From Streptomyces sp. 846.5 (GTDB lineage: Bacteria > Actinomycetota > Actinomycetes > Streptomycetales > Streptomycetaceae), in the NCBI RefSeq assembly GCF_004365705.1, contig NZ_SOBN01000002.1, positions 1,178,001-1,242,000 of the forward strand: DNA of 64,000 nucleotides, written 5' to 3'. Below are positions 25,547-36,599 of this stretch, in pieces; within the stretch, counting starts at the first letter, position 1; every line of letters starts with the position of its first letter. Both the position numbers and the translations under genes were made by a program. Under the pieces are notes generated by a model. The model saw only the letters and a list, made by a program, of their open reading frames with translations, was not told the DNA's origin and ran no database searches.

Positions 25547-25824
25547 GCGTGTCACCGTCTCCCTCGTTGGCATCACACCGTGTCCGAACCGGTCATATTT
25601 TCAACATGCCCATGACATCATCCGTCGCCGGGGTTTACCCGTACCCCAACCGGTCCATGCCCGGCCCGGCGTCACACTGTCATGATCATGGCTCATTGAT
25701 AGCAGCGACCCGCAGCCGCTCACAACGCTTCGAATGTTGCAGCATTGCGAAATATGCCGCGGCAGTGTGTCGGGCAGTCCGGAACCGTTGACCGAGTTGC
25801 TCGACCTCTGCTGAACTCACGCCC

Positions 25825-25902
25825 ATGAAGCCGCAGCTGGAACTCGTTCGGCGGCGCCACATCGACCTGGCGCACGTCTCCAGCACGTTCTGTTGTCGCT
25901 GA
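25825..25902 (+). CDS. Putative cysteine-responsive leader peptide upstream of ssuCBA
   Basis: 25 codons: MKPQLELV, then RRRHIDLAHVSSTFCCR and stop. The core R-R-H-[IV]-D-L followed by V-x-S and adjacent Cys codons matches short actinobacterial leader peptides annotated in front of sulfur-metabolism genes; polycysteine leaders act as cysteine-responsive attenuators in mycobacteria. Here the tandem Cys codons are at 23-24, just before the stop, followed by two overlapping hairpins and, 298 bp on, ssuC. Stalling for lack of Cys-tRNA would favour read-through into the sulfonate operon. No strong Shine-Dalgarno is visible. Confidence 0.75.
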   Translation: MKPQLELVRRRHIDLAHVSSTFCCR

Positions 25903-25912
25903 CCCGGCACAC

Positions 25913-25944
25913 GGCCCCCTAATCGGGCCAGGACCATCGTCCTG
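25913..25944 (+). promoter_or_regulatory. Overlapping hairpins behind the ssu leader peptide (candidate attenuator)
   Basis: GGCCC (25913-25917) pairs with GGGCC (25925-25929), and CAGGAC (25929-25934) pairs perfectly with GTCCTG (25939-25944) around CATC. The two share base 25929, so they may be alternative. They begin 10 nt after the leader stop. The 25903-26200 interval otherwise holds no gene. Confidence 0.45.
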
Positions 25945-26200
25945 CCGACCTCTTTCTCCGACTCCTCTGTGCAACTGCGCCGAGCAGCACATTCCGTACC
26001 CGGAGATCGGGCGGTCGCCCGGGAACCTGCCGCGCCGTCAATCGATCCGAGGGCGCAGAGGCGACGTGCCGTCAAGTGCGGCACCGCAACGCCGACATTC
26101 ACCCAACACGCCTGGCAGTGCGCCAACTTCAGCAAAAGGAACGCTCCATGCCCGCGTCCGTCCGCACACCCACGAGACACCTCCAAGAAGGCAGGGCCAC

Positions 26201-27103
26201 ATGAGCGAGATCCGCCTCGCGGCGCCGGCCATCGGCTCGGGCGCCGCAACCGCGACCGCGACCGCGACGAGCACCAGCGAGCGTGAGGTCTTCCTGCCGC
26301 GCGACGCACGTCGCCGGACCCTGTTCGCCAGCCTGCGCGAACGCCTGCGCTGGCCGCTCGGCATCTACACGACCCCGGTCGCGATCCTCGTCGCCTGGGA
26401 GATCCTTTCCAGGGCCGGGGTGGTGGCGCAGACCTACGCCCCGGCTCCGACCTCCATCGTGAGATCCGCCGTCGACCTGTGGCAGCAGGGCGTCCTCGGG
26501 CCGGACCTGGCCGTCTCACTGCGAAGGGCCGTCATAGGTCTCGCGATCGGACTGACGGTGGGCATCCTCTCCGGGGTGCTCGGCGGTCTGCTGCGCACCG
26601 GTGAGTACCTCTTCAACGGTGTCGTCCAGGTACTGAACACGATCCCGCTGCTGGCGGTGCTGCCGCTGATGATCGTGTGGTTCGGCATCGACGAGCTGAC
26701 CAAGGTGCTGCTGATCTCGTTCGGCGCCGGCGTCCCGATGTACCTCAACCTGTTCGCCGCGATCCGGGGTGTCGACCAGCGCCTGATCGAAATGGCGAAG
26801 ACCACGGGAGCGGGCCCCTGGCGCCTGGTGACGCGGGTGCTGGTGCCCGGAGCCCTGCCGGGGTTCCTGGTCGGCCTCCGGTTCTCCCTCGCCTACAGCA
26901 TCCTGGGCCTGGTCGCCGCCGAGACCATCAACGCCAACGAGGGCCTCGGCTTCCTCATCACCCAGGGCCAGACCTACCTGCAGACCGGCCAGGTCTTCGT
27001 CGGGCTGGCCATCTACTCCCTCCTCGGCCTGGTCGCCGACCAGTTCGTCCGGATTCTCGAGCGGGTGCTGCTGCGGTGGCGCCCCGGATATGAGGCGGCA
27101 TGA
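26201..27103 (+). CDS. ssuC: Aliphatic sulfonate-type ABC transporter permease
   Basis: 300 aa from ATG 26201; open frame upstream lacks family similarity. Six helices and the coupling loop EMAKTTGAGPWRLVTRVLVPGALPGFL match SsuC/TauC permeases; the N-terminal 40 residues are Ala/Thr-rich (ATATATATS) and probably cytoplasmic and disordered. With SsuB and SsuA it would import alkanesulfonates as a sulfur source. Stop and ssuB start overlap in ATGA. Closely related families import taurine, nitrate or thiamine precursors; the sulfonate call rests on the leader peptide, the FMN reductase and monooxygenase neighbours. Confidence 0.85.
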   Translation: MSEIRLAAPAIGSGAATATATATSTSEREVFLPRDARRRTLFASLRERLRWPLGIYTTPVAILVAWEILSRAGVVAQTYAPAPTSIVRSAVDLWQQGVLGPDLAVSLRRAVIGLAIGLTVGILSGVLGGLLRTGEYLFNGVVQVLNTIPLLAVLPLMIVWFGIDELTKVLLISFGAGVPMYLNLFAAIRGVDQRLIEMAKTTGAGPWRLVTRVLVPGALPGFLVGLRFSLAYSILGLVAAETINANEGLGFLITQGQTYLQTGQVFVGLAIYSLLGLVADQFVRILERVLLRWRPGYEAA

Positions 27104-27837
27104 GCACCACGGTTGCGACCCGCACCCGGCGGCAGGCCGGGGTCCTGGTCGAGGGGGTGGTCCGCAGGTTCGGCGACCGGGTGGTGCTCGACCACCTGGA
27201 CCTGACCATCGCCGACGACGAACTGGTGGTCCTGCTCGGCCCCTCCGGCTGCGGCAAGAGCACCCTGCTGCGCCTGCTCGCCGGGCTGGACCGGCCCGAC
27301 GGCGGCCTGGTGGAGGTCCCGGCGAAGCGCGCGATCGTGTTCCAGGCAGACCGACTGCTGCCCTGGCAGCGGGTGCTGCGCAATGTCACGCTCGGCCTGC
27401 GCGGACCGGACGCGGAGCAGCGCGCCCTGGACGTACTCGCCGAGGTCGGACTCGCGGGCCGCGAGCGGGCCTGGCCCAAGGAGCTCTCCGGTGGCGAGGC
27501 CCAGCGGGTGTCGCTGGCGCGGGCGTTGGTCTCGGAGCCCGAACTCGTGCTGCTGGACGAGCCGTTCGCGGCCCTCGACGCGATCACCCGGCTACGCATG
27601 CACGGCCTGGTGCGGGCGCTGCGCAGCAAGCACCACGCGGCCATGCTGCTGGTCACCCACGACGTCGACGAGGCGATCGCACTGGCGGACCGCATCGTCG
27701 TCATGGCCGACGGCCGCATCGGCGCCTCGCACCTCGTCCAACTCTCCGCCACCGAACGCGAGACGAGCGCCGCCCGCGAGGAGCTCCGCTCGGCGCTCCT
27801 GGACGACCTCGGCCTCGGCCTCACCGACCACCCCTGA
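27100..27837 (+). CDS. ssuB: Aliphatic sulfonate-type ABC transporter ATP-binding protein
   Basis: 245 aa. Walker A GPSGCGKST (47-55), Q-loop VFQADRLLPWQ, signature LSGGEAQRVSLARAL, Walker B LVLLDEPFAALD and switch His VTHDVDEA are all present. Matches the SsuB/TauB/NrtD group. ATG 27100 overlaps the ssuC stop. Cytoplasmic ATPase of the importer. Confidence 0.9.
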   Translation: MSTTVATRTRRQAGVLVEGVVRRFGDRVVLDHLDLTIADDELVVLLGPSGCGKSTLLRLLAGLDRPDGGLVEVPAKRAIVFQADRLLPWQRVLRNVTLGLRGPDAEQRALDVLAEVGLAGRERAWPKELSGGEAQRVSLARALVSEPELVLLDEPFAALDAITRLRMHGLVRALRSKHHAAMLLVTHDVDEAIALADRIVVMADGRIGASHLVQLSATERETSAAREELRSALLDDLGLGLTDHP

Positions 27838-27889: not shown

Positions 27890-28933
27890 ATGTCCAGAAG
27901 TACCTCCCGACTCGTCGGCGCCGTCGCTCTGCTCACTGTCGTCAGCACCCTCGCCGCATGCGCCTCGTCGACAAAGGCCACGCCACTGAGCATCAACGGC
28001 GCAGCGAGCGCCGCTGCCCATCCCGAGTGGAGCCAGTACACCTTCACCATCGGCGACAACGGCGGTGACGGCAGCGAGGCCCTGGCCAAGATCACCGGTG
28101 CGTTCGACAACGCCTCCTACCAGGTGAAGTTCGCCCGGTTCACCTACGGCCCCCCGCTGGTGCAGGCGGCCGCGTCGGGCGACATCGACCTGGGCAGCGT
28201 CGGCGACGTGCCGCCGATCACCGGCGCCGCGAAGGAGTACGGCTTCAAGATCGTCGCCGTCACCCGCTCGCTCGCTCCCACCCAGCCGGCCGAGAACATC
28301 ATCGTGCCCAAGGGCTCCACCCTCCAGACACTGGCCGACCTCAAGGGCAAGAAGCTGGCTGTTCCGCAGGGCAGTTCAGCCCACGGTCTGGCCCTGAACG
28401 CGCTCAAGAGCGTCGGTCTGACCCCCAAGGACGTGCAGTTGGTCTTCCTCGACCCGGCCGCAGGCGCCACCGCGTTCGCGACCGGCAAGGTGGACGCCTG
28501 GTCGATCTGGAACCCGCAGTCCGCGCTCGCCGTCAAGGCAGGCGCCCGGATCCTGGCCAAGGGCCTCCCGCCGATCGACCAGACCAGCAACTACTACGTC
28601 GCCAGCGACAAGTCGCTGAACGACCCGGCCAAGCGGGCGGCACTCACGGACCTCCTGAAGCGCCTGGGCGGCGAGTTCCACTGGGCGGTCCAGCACCCCG
28701 ACCAGTACGCGCAGGCGATCTCCCAGGAGGAAGGCATCCCGCTGGCCGACGCCAAGGCGGTGCTGACCTCCCTGGAGACCAGGGTGACGCCGGTGGAGGC
28801 GGCGGACATCGCGGCGGAGCAGCAGCTCGGTGACGCTTTCCTGGAGGCCAAGCAGATCACCAAGAAGGTCGACGTCCAGTCGATCACCGACAACCTCCTC
28901 CCGGCCGGCTACGACAGCTCGAAGCTCAACTGA
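27890..28933 (+). CDS. ssuA: Sulfonate-type ABC transporter substrate-binding lipoprotein
   Basis: 347 aa. Lipoprotein signal LLTVVSTLAAC (Cys 24), then an NMT1/SsuA-like binding fold: FTYGPPLVQAAASGDIDLGSVGDVPPI, VPKGSTLQTLADLKGKKLAVPQGSSAHGLALNAL and FATGKVDAWSIWNPQSAL. It presents the sulfonate to SsuC outside the membrane. Third gene of the operon behind the leader peptide at 25825. Its last bases overlap the end of a decayed hydrolase gene on the other strand. Confidence 0.88.
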   Translation: MSRSTSRLVGAVALLTVVSTLAACASSTKATPLSINGAASAAAHPEWSQYTFTIGDNGGDGSEALAKITGAFDNASYQVKFARFTYGPPLVQAAASGDIDLGSVGDVPPITGAAKEYGFKIVAVTRSLAPTQPAENIIVPKGSTLQTLADLKGKKLAVPQGSSAHGLALNALKSVGLTPKDVQLVFLDPAAGATAFATGKVDAWSIWNPQSALAVKAGARILAKGLPPIDQTSNYYVASDKSLNDPAKRAALTDLLKRLGGEFHWAVQHPDQYAQAISQEEGIPLADAKAVLTSLETRVTPVEAADIAAEQQLGDAFLEAKQITKKVDVQSITDNLLPAGYDSSKLN

Positions 28934-33413: not shown

Positions 33414-34537
33414 TCAGAGCAGCGGGCGGACGCACTCGGCGAAGGTGTACGCCTCCTCCAGGTGCGGGTAGCCGGAGAGGACGAACTCGTCGACGCCCGC
33501 CGCGCGGTACTCGTCGATCCGTTCGGCGACCTCTTCGTGGCTGCCGACCAGCGCGGTCCCCGCGCCGCCGCGGACCAGGCCGATCCCGGCCCAGAGGTTG
33601 GGCGTCACCAGCAGCCGGTCCCGGGAACCGCCGTGGAGCTCCAGCATCCGGCGCTGGCCCTCCGACTCCAGCGCGCGCAGGCGCTGCTGGCCGGCCGCGA
33701 TCGCCCGGTCGTCCAGGCCCGCGATCAGCGCGTCGGCGGCCTGCCAGGCCTGGGCCGCGGTGTCCCGGCTGAGGACGTGGATGCGCAGCCCGAACCGCAG
33801 CGTCCGGCCTTCCGCCCCGGCCCGCTCGCGCACCCGGGCGATCTTCTCGGCGACCAGCGGGGCCGGTTCGCCCCAGGTCAGATAGGTGTCGGCATGCCGG
33901 GCCGCCAGGGCGATCGCGGGGTCGGAGGAACCGCCGAAGTAGACCCGCGGGGCCGGCTCCGGGGGACGGCGCAGCTGGGCGCCCTCCAAGTGGTAGTGCT
34001 CGCCCTTGTGGTCGAAGCGGTCGCCGGTCCAGGAGGCCCGCACCACGTCCAGGAACTCCCGGCCCGGGCGTAGCACTCGTCGTGGTCCAGCCGGTCGCCG
34101 TAGCCGCGCTGTTCGGGATCACTGCGGCCGGCCACCACGTTCAGCAAAAGCCGTCCCCCCGACAGGCGCTGGAACGTCGCCGCAGTCTGCGCCGCGAGCG
34201 CGGGCTCCACCAGGCCGGGACGGAAGGCCACCATGAACTTCAGCCGCCGGGTCCTGGCGATCAGAGCCGCGGTGACGATCCAGACGTCCTCGCAGTGCGC
34301 ACCAGTGGGCGTCAGCACCCCCTCGTACCCGAGGTCGTCGGCGGCCTCCGCGAGTTGGGAGAGATAGGCCAAGGTGGCCGGCCGCTCTCCCCCTCCCCCG
34401 GTACGGCGGCCTTCGCCTTCGCTCCCGTCCGCGCCGATGCCGAGGCCGTGGACGGCTCCGCCCAGCCTGCGGCCGTCCCCGCCGGTGGGCAGGAACCAGT
34501 GGAAGGCCGTGCTGCTGCCTGCTGATGTCGCGGTCAT
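33414..34537 (-). pseudogene. SsuD-like LLM monooxygenase with a frameshift
   Basis: From ATG 34537 the frame encodes TAFHWFLPTGGDGR, the alkanesulfonate monooxygenase start, and continues to GRSDPEQRGYGDRLDHDECYAR near 34075, then becomes nonsense. A second frame takes over at the same point with REFLDVVRASWTGDRFDHKGEHYHLEGA and runs to the stop at 33414 (about 373 codons in total). One missing base in a G run (GGG where GGGG restores GEFLDVV) explains it. It is either a real inactivating mutation or a sequencing error; if corrected, the protein is a full-length FMNH2-dependent sulfonate monooxygenase. Confidence 0.85.
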
Positions 34538-34950
34538 TTATCCTTCTCGGGCCAATGCCGAGGTTCAGTACTCCTCAGCGCGGGACGTGCGTGCCTACAG
34601 GTCTGCAACAGACCGGCGACGTCCTCGGACACAGTGCACTGCCTGCAGAACGGCACGTCTGCACGGGAATCACCTCGCACTCCTCGGGCCCCCGAAGGGC
34701 CTCGCGCTTACAGGACGGACGTCCTGTCGGGTCGTCACCTGGAGCACCCCACCGCGGACGAGGGTTGCCGGTCAGCAAGCCAGGGCTTGACGCTGACGCT
34801 CGTAACCAGGGCTTACGTTAACCGCTCGTCACGGCTTGGACAATGCCCCCCGTCCGTCCGGAAAAGCCCACTGTGAACGGCGTATTGCCGCAGGTGACAG
34901 CATGCGGGAAGGCTGGTCTGGAGGCCTCCGACGGGACTACTCTCACGGCC
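34538..34950. other. Intergenic region with palindromes upstream of both SsuD-like gene and metY leader
   Basis: No coding signal. Two short perfect dyads are visible: GGTCTG/CAGACC (34600-34614) and CAGGAC/GTCCTG (34711-34726, spacer GGAC). The second has the same arms and spacer length as the dyad behind the ssu leader at 25929-25944. Promoters for the divergent monooxygenase and met genes should lie here. Confidence 0.45.
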
Positions 34951-35025
34951 ATGACCGTTCTTGTCAGCCGGCGCCACGTGGACTTCGGGCGCAGCACCAG
35001 CACCGGGTGTAACCGCCCCCGCTGA
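34951..35025 (+). CDS. Putative leader peptide upstream of metY-metX
   Basis: 24 codons: MTVLVSRRHVDFGRSTST, then GCNRPR and stop. It keeps the R-R-H-V-D-F core of the other two leaders but has a single Cys codon (20) and Arg/Pro codons at the end. It lies 182 bp before metY, so it probably attenuates methionine/cysteine sulfhydrylation genes according to charged tRNA supply. Confidence 0.68.
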   Translation: MTVLVSRRHVDFGRSTSTGCNRPR

Positions 35026-35207
35026 CTCGACCGCGGGCGACCTCCGCCGCCCCCGCTCCGGTGAATACCGGTGATTCCGGTGAACCGCCCCGGAAGCCCC
35101 GTTCATCCCTGCCTCCCTCCCCCCGCCCGCCCCTTCCTTCGGCGTGCCGCCGTGCCCGCGCACCTGCCGCCCCGCGCGCACGCCAACCCGTGAATGGAGC
35201 CGTCCAC

Positions 35208-36599
35208 GTGAGCCCTTCCATCGACCCCGCCACCGCAGAGCTCGACCTGGCGGTCGCCTCGGCCGAGGCAGTCGCCGACAGCACCGGCTGGTCCTTCGAG
35301 ACCAAGCAGGTGCACGCCGGAGCCGTGCCCGACCCCACCACCGGCGCCCGCGCGGTCCCGATCTACCAGACCACCTCCTTTGTCTTCCACGACACCGCCC
35401 ACGCGGCCGGGCTGTTCGCGCTCGCCGAGGAAGGCAACATCTACACCCGCATCCACAACCCCACCCAGGACGTGCTGGAGCATCGCATCGCCGCGCTGGA
35501 GGGGGGAATCGCCGCCGTGGCGACCGCCTCCGGCCAGGCCGCCGAGACGCTGGCGATCCTGACGCTGGCGAGCGCGGGCGACCACATCGTCTCCAGCACC
35601 TCGCTCTACGGCGGCACCTACAACCTCTTCAAGCACACCCTGCCGCGCTTCGGCATCGAGTTCTCCTTCGTCGACGACCCGGACGACCTGGACGCCTGGC
35701 GGGCCGCGATCCGGCCGAACACCAAGGCGCTGTTCGCCGAGACCCTGGGCAATCCGCGCGGCAACGTACTGGATGTGCGGGCGGTCGCCGACGTGGCGCA
35801 CACCGCCGGGGTGCCGCTGATCGTGGACAACACCGTCCCCACGCCCTACCTGCTGCGCCCGATCGAGCACGGCGCCGACATCGTGGTGCACTCGGCGACC
35901 AAGTTCCTCGGTGGCCACGGCACGGCCATCGCCGGCGCGGTGGTCGACGCGGGCACCTTCGACTACGGGGCGCACGCGGACCGCTTCCCCGGCTTCAACG
36001 ATCCCGACCCGTCGTACCACGGGCTTCGCTACTGGCCCGACCTGGGCGCCCCGGCGTTCGCGGTCAAGCTGCGGGTGCAGCTGCTGCGCGACCTCGGTCC
36101 GGCCATCGCGCCGCTGAACTCCTTCCTGGTGATCCAGGGCCTGGAGACGCTGTCGCTGCGGATCGAGCGCCACACCGCCAACGCCCAGGCCATCGCCGAG
36201 TGGCTGGAGAGCCGCGACGAGGTCACCGCTGTGCACTACCCCGGCCTGCCGTCCAGCCGCTGGTACCAGGCGGGTCAGCGCTATCTGCCGCGCGGGGCAG
36301 GCGCGGTGCTCGCCTTCGAGCTGCGGGACGGCATCGAGGCCGGCAAGCGGTTCGTGGACGGGGTCAGCCTGTTCAGCCACCTCGCCAACATCGGCGATGT
36401 GCGCAGCCTGATCATCCACCCGGCATCCACCACCCACAGCCAGCTCAGCGAGGACGAACTGACGGCGACCGGCGCAACTCCGGGCCTGGTACGGCTGTCG
36501 GTCGGCATCGAGAACCTGGCGGACCTCAAGGCCGACCTGGAGGCCGGGTTCCGGGCGGCCAAGGCAGCCGGCACGAAGGCTCAGGGGGTGAGCGATTGA
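35208..36599 (+). CDS. metY: O-acetylhomoserine sulfhydrylase MetY
   Basis: 463 aa from GTG 35208 (GGAG 8 nt upstream); longer open frame before it is Arg/Pro-rich noise. PLP enzyme of the Cys/Met metabolism family: [31 protein letters not shown] start, [46 protein letters not shown] with the PLP lysine (residue about 232), and [27 protein letters not shown]. It makes homocysteine from O-acetylhomoserine and sulfide, or uses other thiols, in the cytoplasm. Downstream metX (TTGA overlap) supplies O-acetylhomoserine; the leader at 34951 probably controls both. Confidence 0.94.

Follow-up and report, generated by a model that had tools for sequence, protein, structure and literature searches.

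A selected, cysteine-ended leader peptide of a known kind ahead of a sulfonate-uptake operon in Streptomycetaceae

Described cysteine leaders and the leader ORF of the window

Canestrari et al. (2020) reportedly described leaderless short ORFs with polycysteine tracts in mycobacteria, with a translational read-out in M. smegmatis. In passages of two papers, this work is cited as translation attenuation (PMC13236596) and as attenuation of downstream translation (PMC9031893). Candidate Cys leaders were also proposed by Seliverstov et al. (2005). In the passages available from that paper (PMC1262725) they stand before cys and cbs operons of Mycobacterium, P. acnes and B. longum, and they resemble the leader reported here in a run of Cys codons near the stop and in the absence of an obvious terminator; the same passages name neither sulfonate genes nor a Streptomyces cys leader. 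In addition, Cys-rich uORFs before cysA2, Rv0485 and nirA appear in a part of PMC4633059, eight S. lividans leaders are given in a part of PMC8079986 where none is described as cysteine-dependent, and the part available of PMC11133741 holds nothing on an ssu leader. No report of an ssu leader in Streptomyces was found among the matches listed in the literature search, which left most subscription journals outside its scope. As far as these searches go, a Cys leader is new for a sulfonate operon within the literature searched.

The window analysed here is the whole stretch of 64,000 nucleotides from Streptomyces sp. 846.5. Its leader ORF, MKPQLELVRRRHIDLAHVSSTFCCR*, lies at 25825-25902 (+) and has 25 codons, with the ATG at 25825 and the TGA at 25900-25902. 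The segment RRRHIDL (codons 9-15, 25849-25869, +) forms a conserved part of the nascent chain in which His-Ile-Asp is invariant in 20/20 distinct leaders, and the peptide ends in Cys23-Cys24-Arg25 (TGT TGT CGC) with the two Cys codons at 25891-25896 (+), both of them Cys in 20/20 distinct leaders. A spacer of 298 nt (25903-26200, +) separates the leader from an ssuC-like permease gene at 26201-27103 (+; NF008470 SsuC, E 1e-59, below its cut-off; PF00528), which is followed by an ssuB-like ATPase gene at 27100-27837 (+; NF008420, E 2e-66, below its cut-off) and a gene for an ssuA-like sulfonate-binding protein at 27890-28933 (+). Only the SsuA_fam match among these three passes its cut-off (TIGR01728, 171.9 bits, cut-off 163.5). 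At the end of the spacer, an 18-codon ORF behind AAAAGGAACG (26149-26205, +) has a TGA that overlaps the ssuC ATG and was read from the sequence as a possible coupling ORF.

The sequence-only reading had placed a Cys-ended ORF of 25 codons 298 bp ahead of ssuC and had taken it for a leader of a pattern known in actinobacteria. Both points were borne out by a match to NCBIfam NF042934, by orthologs and by codon statistics that indicate purifying selection, so that 25825-25902 can be regarded as a genuine leader under selection that ends in Cys codons and belongs to a known kind. Most likely, the mini-gene acts as a switch for cysteine shortage of a sort that has been recognised before.

The match of the window leader to NF042934 ('putative leader peptide', class cis_reg_atten) had an E value of 5e-5 and 22.8 bits, which is below the cut-off of 27 and short of the score for membership. 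It was the best match below the cut-off in the whole genome and the sixth overall. Six Streptomycetaceae ssu leaders were scored with the same model, three at 27.1 bits and the others at 26.4, 20.6 and 19.2 bits. The passing orthologs (L053, L035 and L040) share place, promoter and peptide type with the window leader, the ground on which they count as its orthologs. The alignment covers residues 7-23, and the commonest ssu ortholog scores 27.1 bits against the cut-off of 27, so the NCBI model already reaches that form, whereas the copy in the window is diverged and falls under the cut-off.

With the mycobacterial polycysteine leaders (NF042936 Ms4527A and NF042933 Ms5788A) the window leader shares a leaderless-looking start, terminal Cys codons and sulfur genes behind. 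As in the polycysteine type, a short ORF with a 3' run of Cys codons stands before sulfur genes, here with two invariant Cys and an SsuA match over its cut-off downstream. The alignment to NF042936 was weak (20.9 bits, cut-off 45), and the orthologs aligned weakly to both NF042936 and NF042933. Unlike the mycobacterial leaders, the window leader has only two Cys codons and precedes an ssu operon across a spacer of hundreds of nt; folding tests, weak evidence either way, gave no support for masking of the ribosome-binding site.

Orthologous leaders, operon context and promoter

A scan of GTDB genomes for SsuC produced 51 loci, 32 of which were Streptomycetaceae by record titles (two of them in one genome); Wenjunlia, Actinacidiphila, Streptacidiphilus and Streptantibioticus were counted as members of this family. 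A leader was present upstream of ssuC at 31 of these 32 loci, and the one exception, L081, has only 1234 bases of upstream DNA before its contig breaks off. Among the remaining 19 loci, four (L070, L079, L082 and L075) had a related or similar leader, that of L075 without a family match at E 1e-5. By two patterns, no such leader was seen at the SsuC loci of Nocardia (2) and of mycobacteria (9), one of the nine (L080) lacking upstream DNA; L073 and L080 contributed little or no upstream DNA to the search. Loose regex matches in L041, L066 and L069 were discarded by eye as the motif was absent. Within the genus of the window, SsuC matches at E 1e-60 or better were found in 5 of 14 genomes, its own included, and the leader regions of G008, G009 and G002 equal those of Streptacidiphilus neutrinimicus, S. 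pinicola and S. anmyonensis, which makes Streptacidiphilus the probable genus of the window.

Codon statistics were calculated for 33 leaders (the 31 Streptomycetaceae ssu loci, the copy L026 of genome G007 and the window), which comprised 20 distinct DNA sequences; the leader of L034 was taken from an upstream ATG. The ssu orthologs in this set were found through SsuC and not via NF042934. A total of 102 changes from the commonest codon were counted, 63 synonymous and 39 non-synonymous, against a synonymous share of 26% expected for random single changes (p 3e-14, in a count that ignores relatedness). Residues that never change across the 20 distinct sequences include His12, Ile13, Asp14, Phe22, Cys23 and Cys24, and residues 10-24 as a whole are strongly conserved. 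The Cys codons of the leaders were TGT in 38 of 40 cases, compared with 3 TGT to 38 TGC in 15 window genes. Judged from these codon changes, the leader peptide is under purifying selection.

That ssuC is the gene behind the leader had been read correctly for the window, but in most relatives a TauD-like gene comes first, which had gone unnoticed earlier (L053: NF007104 taurine dioxygenase, E 4e-57, below its cut-off). Of 31 loci, 28 had a tauD start that could be placed, 221-613 nt past the leader stop, the shortest case being a remnant. In genomes G008, G002 and G009 the leader is about 1.2 kb from ssuC with a tauD-like gene between; this was read directly in G008 and, for G002 and G009, through loci L060 and L057 with equal leader regions. 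In G007 the leader precedes an LLM-type monooxygenase gene instead. A tblastn search of the window spacer with the TauD of a relative found no tauD remnant, and blastn alignments to relatives break off shortly past the stop codon of the leader and begin again at ssuC, with only weak, short matches between the two. The lineage of the window has lost tauD, which mostly heads this operon, and its leader now stands directly before ssuC. Short intervals between leader and ssuC were also found in L041 (383 nt), L049 (797 nt) and L065 (529 nt), and the tauD of L041 can be a remnant at most because ssuC follows within 162 nt. These short intervals point to repeated decay of tauD next to a leader that is retained. 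That tauD has been lost from behind such a leader in turn suggests a role of the leader element for the transporter too.

The promoter TTGACC (25788-25793) with an 18-nt spacer and TGAACT (25812-25817) occupies 25788-25817 (+) and ends 7 nt before the leader ATG. The form TTGACC-N17/18-T[G/C]NACT, ending 6-8 nt 5' of the ATG, was present at all 33 leaders compared (31 Streptomycetaceae ssu loci, the G007 copy and the window), with TGAACT, TCAACT, TGGACT and TGCACT as variants of the second element. A generic sigma-70 scan did not flag the leader promoter. Since the promoter lies 6-8 nt before the ATG, the predicted start point coincides with the ATG or adjoins it, and the mRNA of the leader is probably leaderless.

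Proposed mechanism and candidate read-outs

The ORF probably encodes a leader peptide, translated from a leaderless mRNA, through which the sulfonate-uptake operon responds to cysteine supply. Translation would begin at the 5' AUG of the leader and, with charged Cys-tRNA scarce, the ribosome would stall at the pair of UGU codons close to the stop, perhaps aided by the RRxHIDL nascent chain. The stalled ribosome would hold the RNA behind the leader in a state that permits production of SsuCBA. With plentiful cysteine the ribosome would finish and leave, and the untranslated spacer of 298 nt would lower expression, with termination by Rho, a different RNA switch and a masked ribosome-binding site as candidate read-outs. 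The ORF, the selection on its peptide, the invariant Cys codons, the promoter position and the link to sulfonate genes are the observations on which this model builds. It is favoured by the leader at 31/32 Streptomycetaceae SsuC loci, the 63 vs 39 codon changes, the invariant and mostly rare TGT codons of Cys23/24, the promoter position kept in 33/33, five other leaders in the own genome and an arm that pairs with the Cys and stop codons in 18 Streptomyces-type loci. Against it count that no conserved switch was found in the window, the one-sided changes in the Cys-tract helix of relatives, the tests of ribosome-binding-site masking described below, which gave no support, and the Nocardia and mycobacterial SsuC loci without such a leader. 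A small protein with a function of its own and an incidental RNA would also agree with the strong conservation of residues 10-24. However, its length, its position before sulfur genes and its terminal, rare-TGT Cys codons fit a leader, and the same motif stands ahead of unrelated sulfur genes, which makes this reading very improbable.

Two GC-rich hairpins follow the leader stop closely: hairpin 1 (GGCCC/GGGCC, 25913-25929), which starts 10 nt past the stop, and hairpin 2 (CAGGAC/GTCCTG, 25929-25944). They were present as written in the sequence-only reading and share the base C25929, on which it had based the idea that they could exclude each other; it had also named a transcript end near 25945 as a check. 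Neither was supported. The predicted three-way fold of 25905-25947 (+; -21.2 kcal/mol) forms both hairpins at once, with a stem of four pairs (25905-25908/25944-25947) around hairpins 25913-25929 and 25930-25943, the second cut to 5 pairs. One shared base does not make the hairpins exclusive, because both fold together under the common stem. No terminator-like site was found in 25650-26250. For the stretch 25903-25948, selected after the fact, the fold was better than that of shuffled sequences (z -2.86, 3/200 as good), whereas 25888-25950, which includes the Cys codons, is not clearly better (z -1.45, 14/200). An alignment of 29 spacers showed no conservation of the hairpins; hairpin 2 is without a counterpart in the relatives, and hairpin 1 has a weak one in two congeneric loci, L057 and L060 (GGCC/GGCC 21-32 nt past the stop, compared with 11-27 nt for hairpin 1). 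Classical transcription attenuation, with the hairpins as terminator and antiterminator, would account for two GC-rich hairpins right after the stop and for the favourable fold of the chosen stretch, but it is improbable given hairpins that coexist, the absent terminator-like site and conservation limited to the resemblance in L057 and L060. The exclusive hairpins and the intrinsic terminator with a U tract that mark a classical attenuator were not found in the window.

Two variants of the cysteine-sensing leader model differ in the read-out. Rho could load on the long, C-rich untranslated spacer once the ribosome has gone, and a stalled ribosome or the fold that it favours would block Rho. 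This agrees with the length of the spacers (298 nt in the window and, up to the start of tauD, 221-613 nt in 28 relatives), with the absence of an intrinsic terminator and with base composition, as C (36-44%) exceeds G (25-33%) in 29/29 spacers, the window included, a count made on these spacers only. For cys leaders that lack a terminator, a role of Rho was put forward by Seliverstov et al. (2005), who in the passages available termed it a weak prediction (PMC1262725). Rho sites, however, are not confidently readable from sequence, and this read-out is regarded as possible rather than probable. Alternatively, the read-out could be translational, with the ribosome-binding site of the next gene hidden by the spacer until a ribosome stalled at the Cys codons exposes it. 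Before ssuC, GGCAGG at 26190-26195 is complementary to CCTGCC at 25941-25946 and at 26026-26031, and its pairing with the latter copy is predicted at about 0.97 without a ribosome; the site at 26190-26195 stayed paired at every modelled ribosome position (mean 0.79-0.85). An anti-Shine-Dalgarno pairing of the spacer with the site before the next gene was no better than in dinucleotide shuffles (window p 0.36; 31 loci combined p 0.96), and no stall-dependent opening of the ribosome-binding site was seen in 27 of 31 loci, the four longest being excluded (p 0.59 and 0.80). These masking tests are equilibrium foldings of GC-rich RNA and weak evidence either way. The same mode has reportedly been found in the mycobacterial relatives (M. 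smegmatis), and translational read-out is held to be somewhat doubtful here.

In the consensus fold of 18 Streptomyces-type spacers, an arm 17-26 nt past the stop forms a helix with the Cys and stop codons (9 pairs, 98.8% of cells paired). The consensus structure beats column shuffles on 4 of 5 measures, the fifth being reached by 26/500, a win that relatedness alone can produce, and it beats slid controls on 4 of 5, with 3 pairs showing two-sided change vs 5 in the +2 slide. No compensatory change was found in the Cys-codon helix of these 18 spacers, where the kept changes are all one-sided. It is plausible from this modelled fold that a stalled ribosome would free the arm and so act as the switch in Streptomyces; in the window, no arm of the Streptomyces type that pairs with the Cys tract was seen. 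Separately, a strongly conserved untranslated block with a CCACCTCCTGA-like motif was observed in L035:2862-2976 and in 14 similar Streptomyces loci. It usually starts about 108 nt past the ssu leader stop (21-67 nt in three loci), and it showed no compensatory change across the 15 loci, no Rfam match (L035 only, of the 15) and no blastn match in the window spacer.

The leader family and neighbouring sulfur-linked elements

Matches to NF042934 at E 0.01 or better were found in 60 of 61 genomes (the own genome and 60 relatives) vs 0 of 14 control genomes. In the own genome, five further leaders exceed the cut-off, and behind them lie genes for a MoaD-like protein with a cysteine synthase, a sulfurtransferase, a nitrite/sulfite reductase-like protein, an ABC permease of the amino-acid type and a monooxygenase of the NtaA/DmoA type. 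Of these products, the cysteine synthase alone scores above a model cut-off. Two of the leaders, L003 and L004 (G000:C1, about 1096450-1096995), stand back to back before the amino-acid-type ABC permease and NtaA/DmoA-type monooxygenase genes.

The distance from the motif Asp to Cys was counted in 45 loci, 40 from diverse genera among the matches listed and the five best of the own genome. The pattern was readable in 42 of them (L110, L112 and L125 gave no pattern match). Cys occupies Asp+9 in 39 of the 42 leaders and, by eye, in a 40th, L126 (Cys at Asp+8 and +9), a count that is partly circular because all 45 loci came from the NF042934 model that spans the segment. The Asp+9 Cys is absent from L114 and L122, which resemble the cysteine-synthase type and end one codon early with the stop at the usual Asp+9 position. 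Only one Cys follows the motif in 13 of 42 leaders, at Asp+9 in 11 and at Asp+2 in L114 and L122. The window leader also has a Cys nine residues past the motif Asp. A single Cys codon would be little for a plain tRNA sensor, and the arrest-peptide idea follows from this; the fixed step of nine residues from RRxHIDL to Cys before unrelated sulfur genes hints that the nascent chain may take part. It can be put forward, tentatively, that the leaders are cysteine-tuned arrest peptides and not plain codon counters, in which case RRxH[I/V]DL, nine residues before one nearly invariant Cys, would act in the exit tunnel and a single slow Cys codon would then lead to a stall. The fixed spacing makes the role of the nascent chain versus tRNA supply in such a stall testable, and the ortholog set is available for mutagenesis. 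The leaders before ssu genes would extend cysteine leader control from cysteine biosynthesis to organic-sulfur scavenging in Streptomycetaceae.

The own genome carries a stand-alone TauD gene about 28 kb left of the leader, the product of which is 67-71% identical to operon-linked TauDs, compared with 79-86% identity of the operon-linked TauDs to the S. neutrinimicus copy, and it is therefore probably a paralog. This paralog has a leaderless-looking ORF of its own, MRSMRHLDERVRCACLGAPRCSRRCRPASA* (L083:1270-1362, G000:C2), without a match to any NCBIfam model at E 0.1. A search of 150 family genomes for ORFs of this type gave matches at E 2e-4 or better in 8, the own included, and 7 of the 8 were re-read; they showed a similar promoter and an LGAxRCxR core, with a tauD-like gene behind in three. 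This type of ORF is possibly a second kind of Cys leader.

Further along the window, a second candidate of the Cys-leader type, MTVLVSRRHVDFGRSTSTGCNRPR*, was seen at 34951-35025 (+), with TACTCT ending 7 nt before its ATG. Its best leader model was NF042936 (25.2 bits vs 45), and the gene behind it at 35061-36599 encodes an O-acetylhomoserine/O-acetylserine sulfhydrylase (metY; NF005872, 813.9 bits, over the cut-off of 703). Within 33414-34807 (-), a SAM-IV riboswitch (34699-34807) precedes an alkanesulfonate monooxygenase (ssuD-like) gene. The two halves of this gene are in different frames and meet near 34060, which reflects either a broken gene or a sequencing slip. Finally, in Streptacidiphilus anmyonensis the DNA directly upstream of the ssu leader holds a SAM-IV riboswitch on the opposite strand (L060:2343-2454, -).
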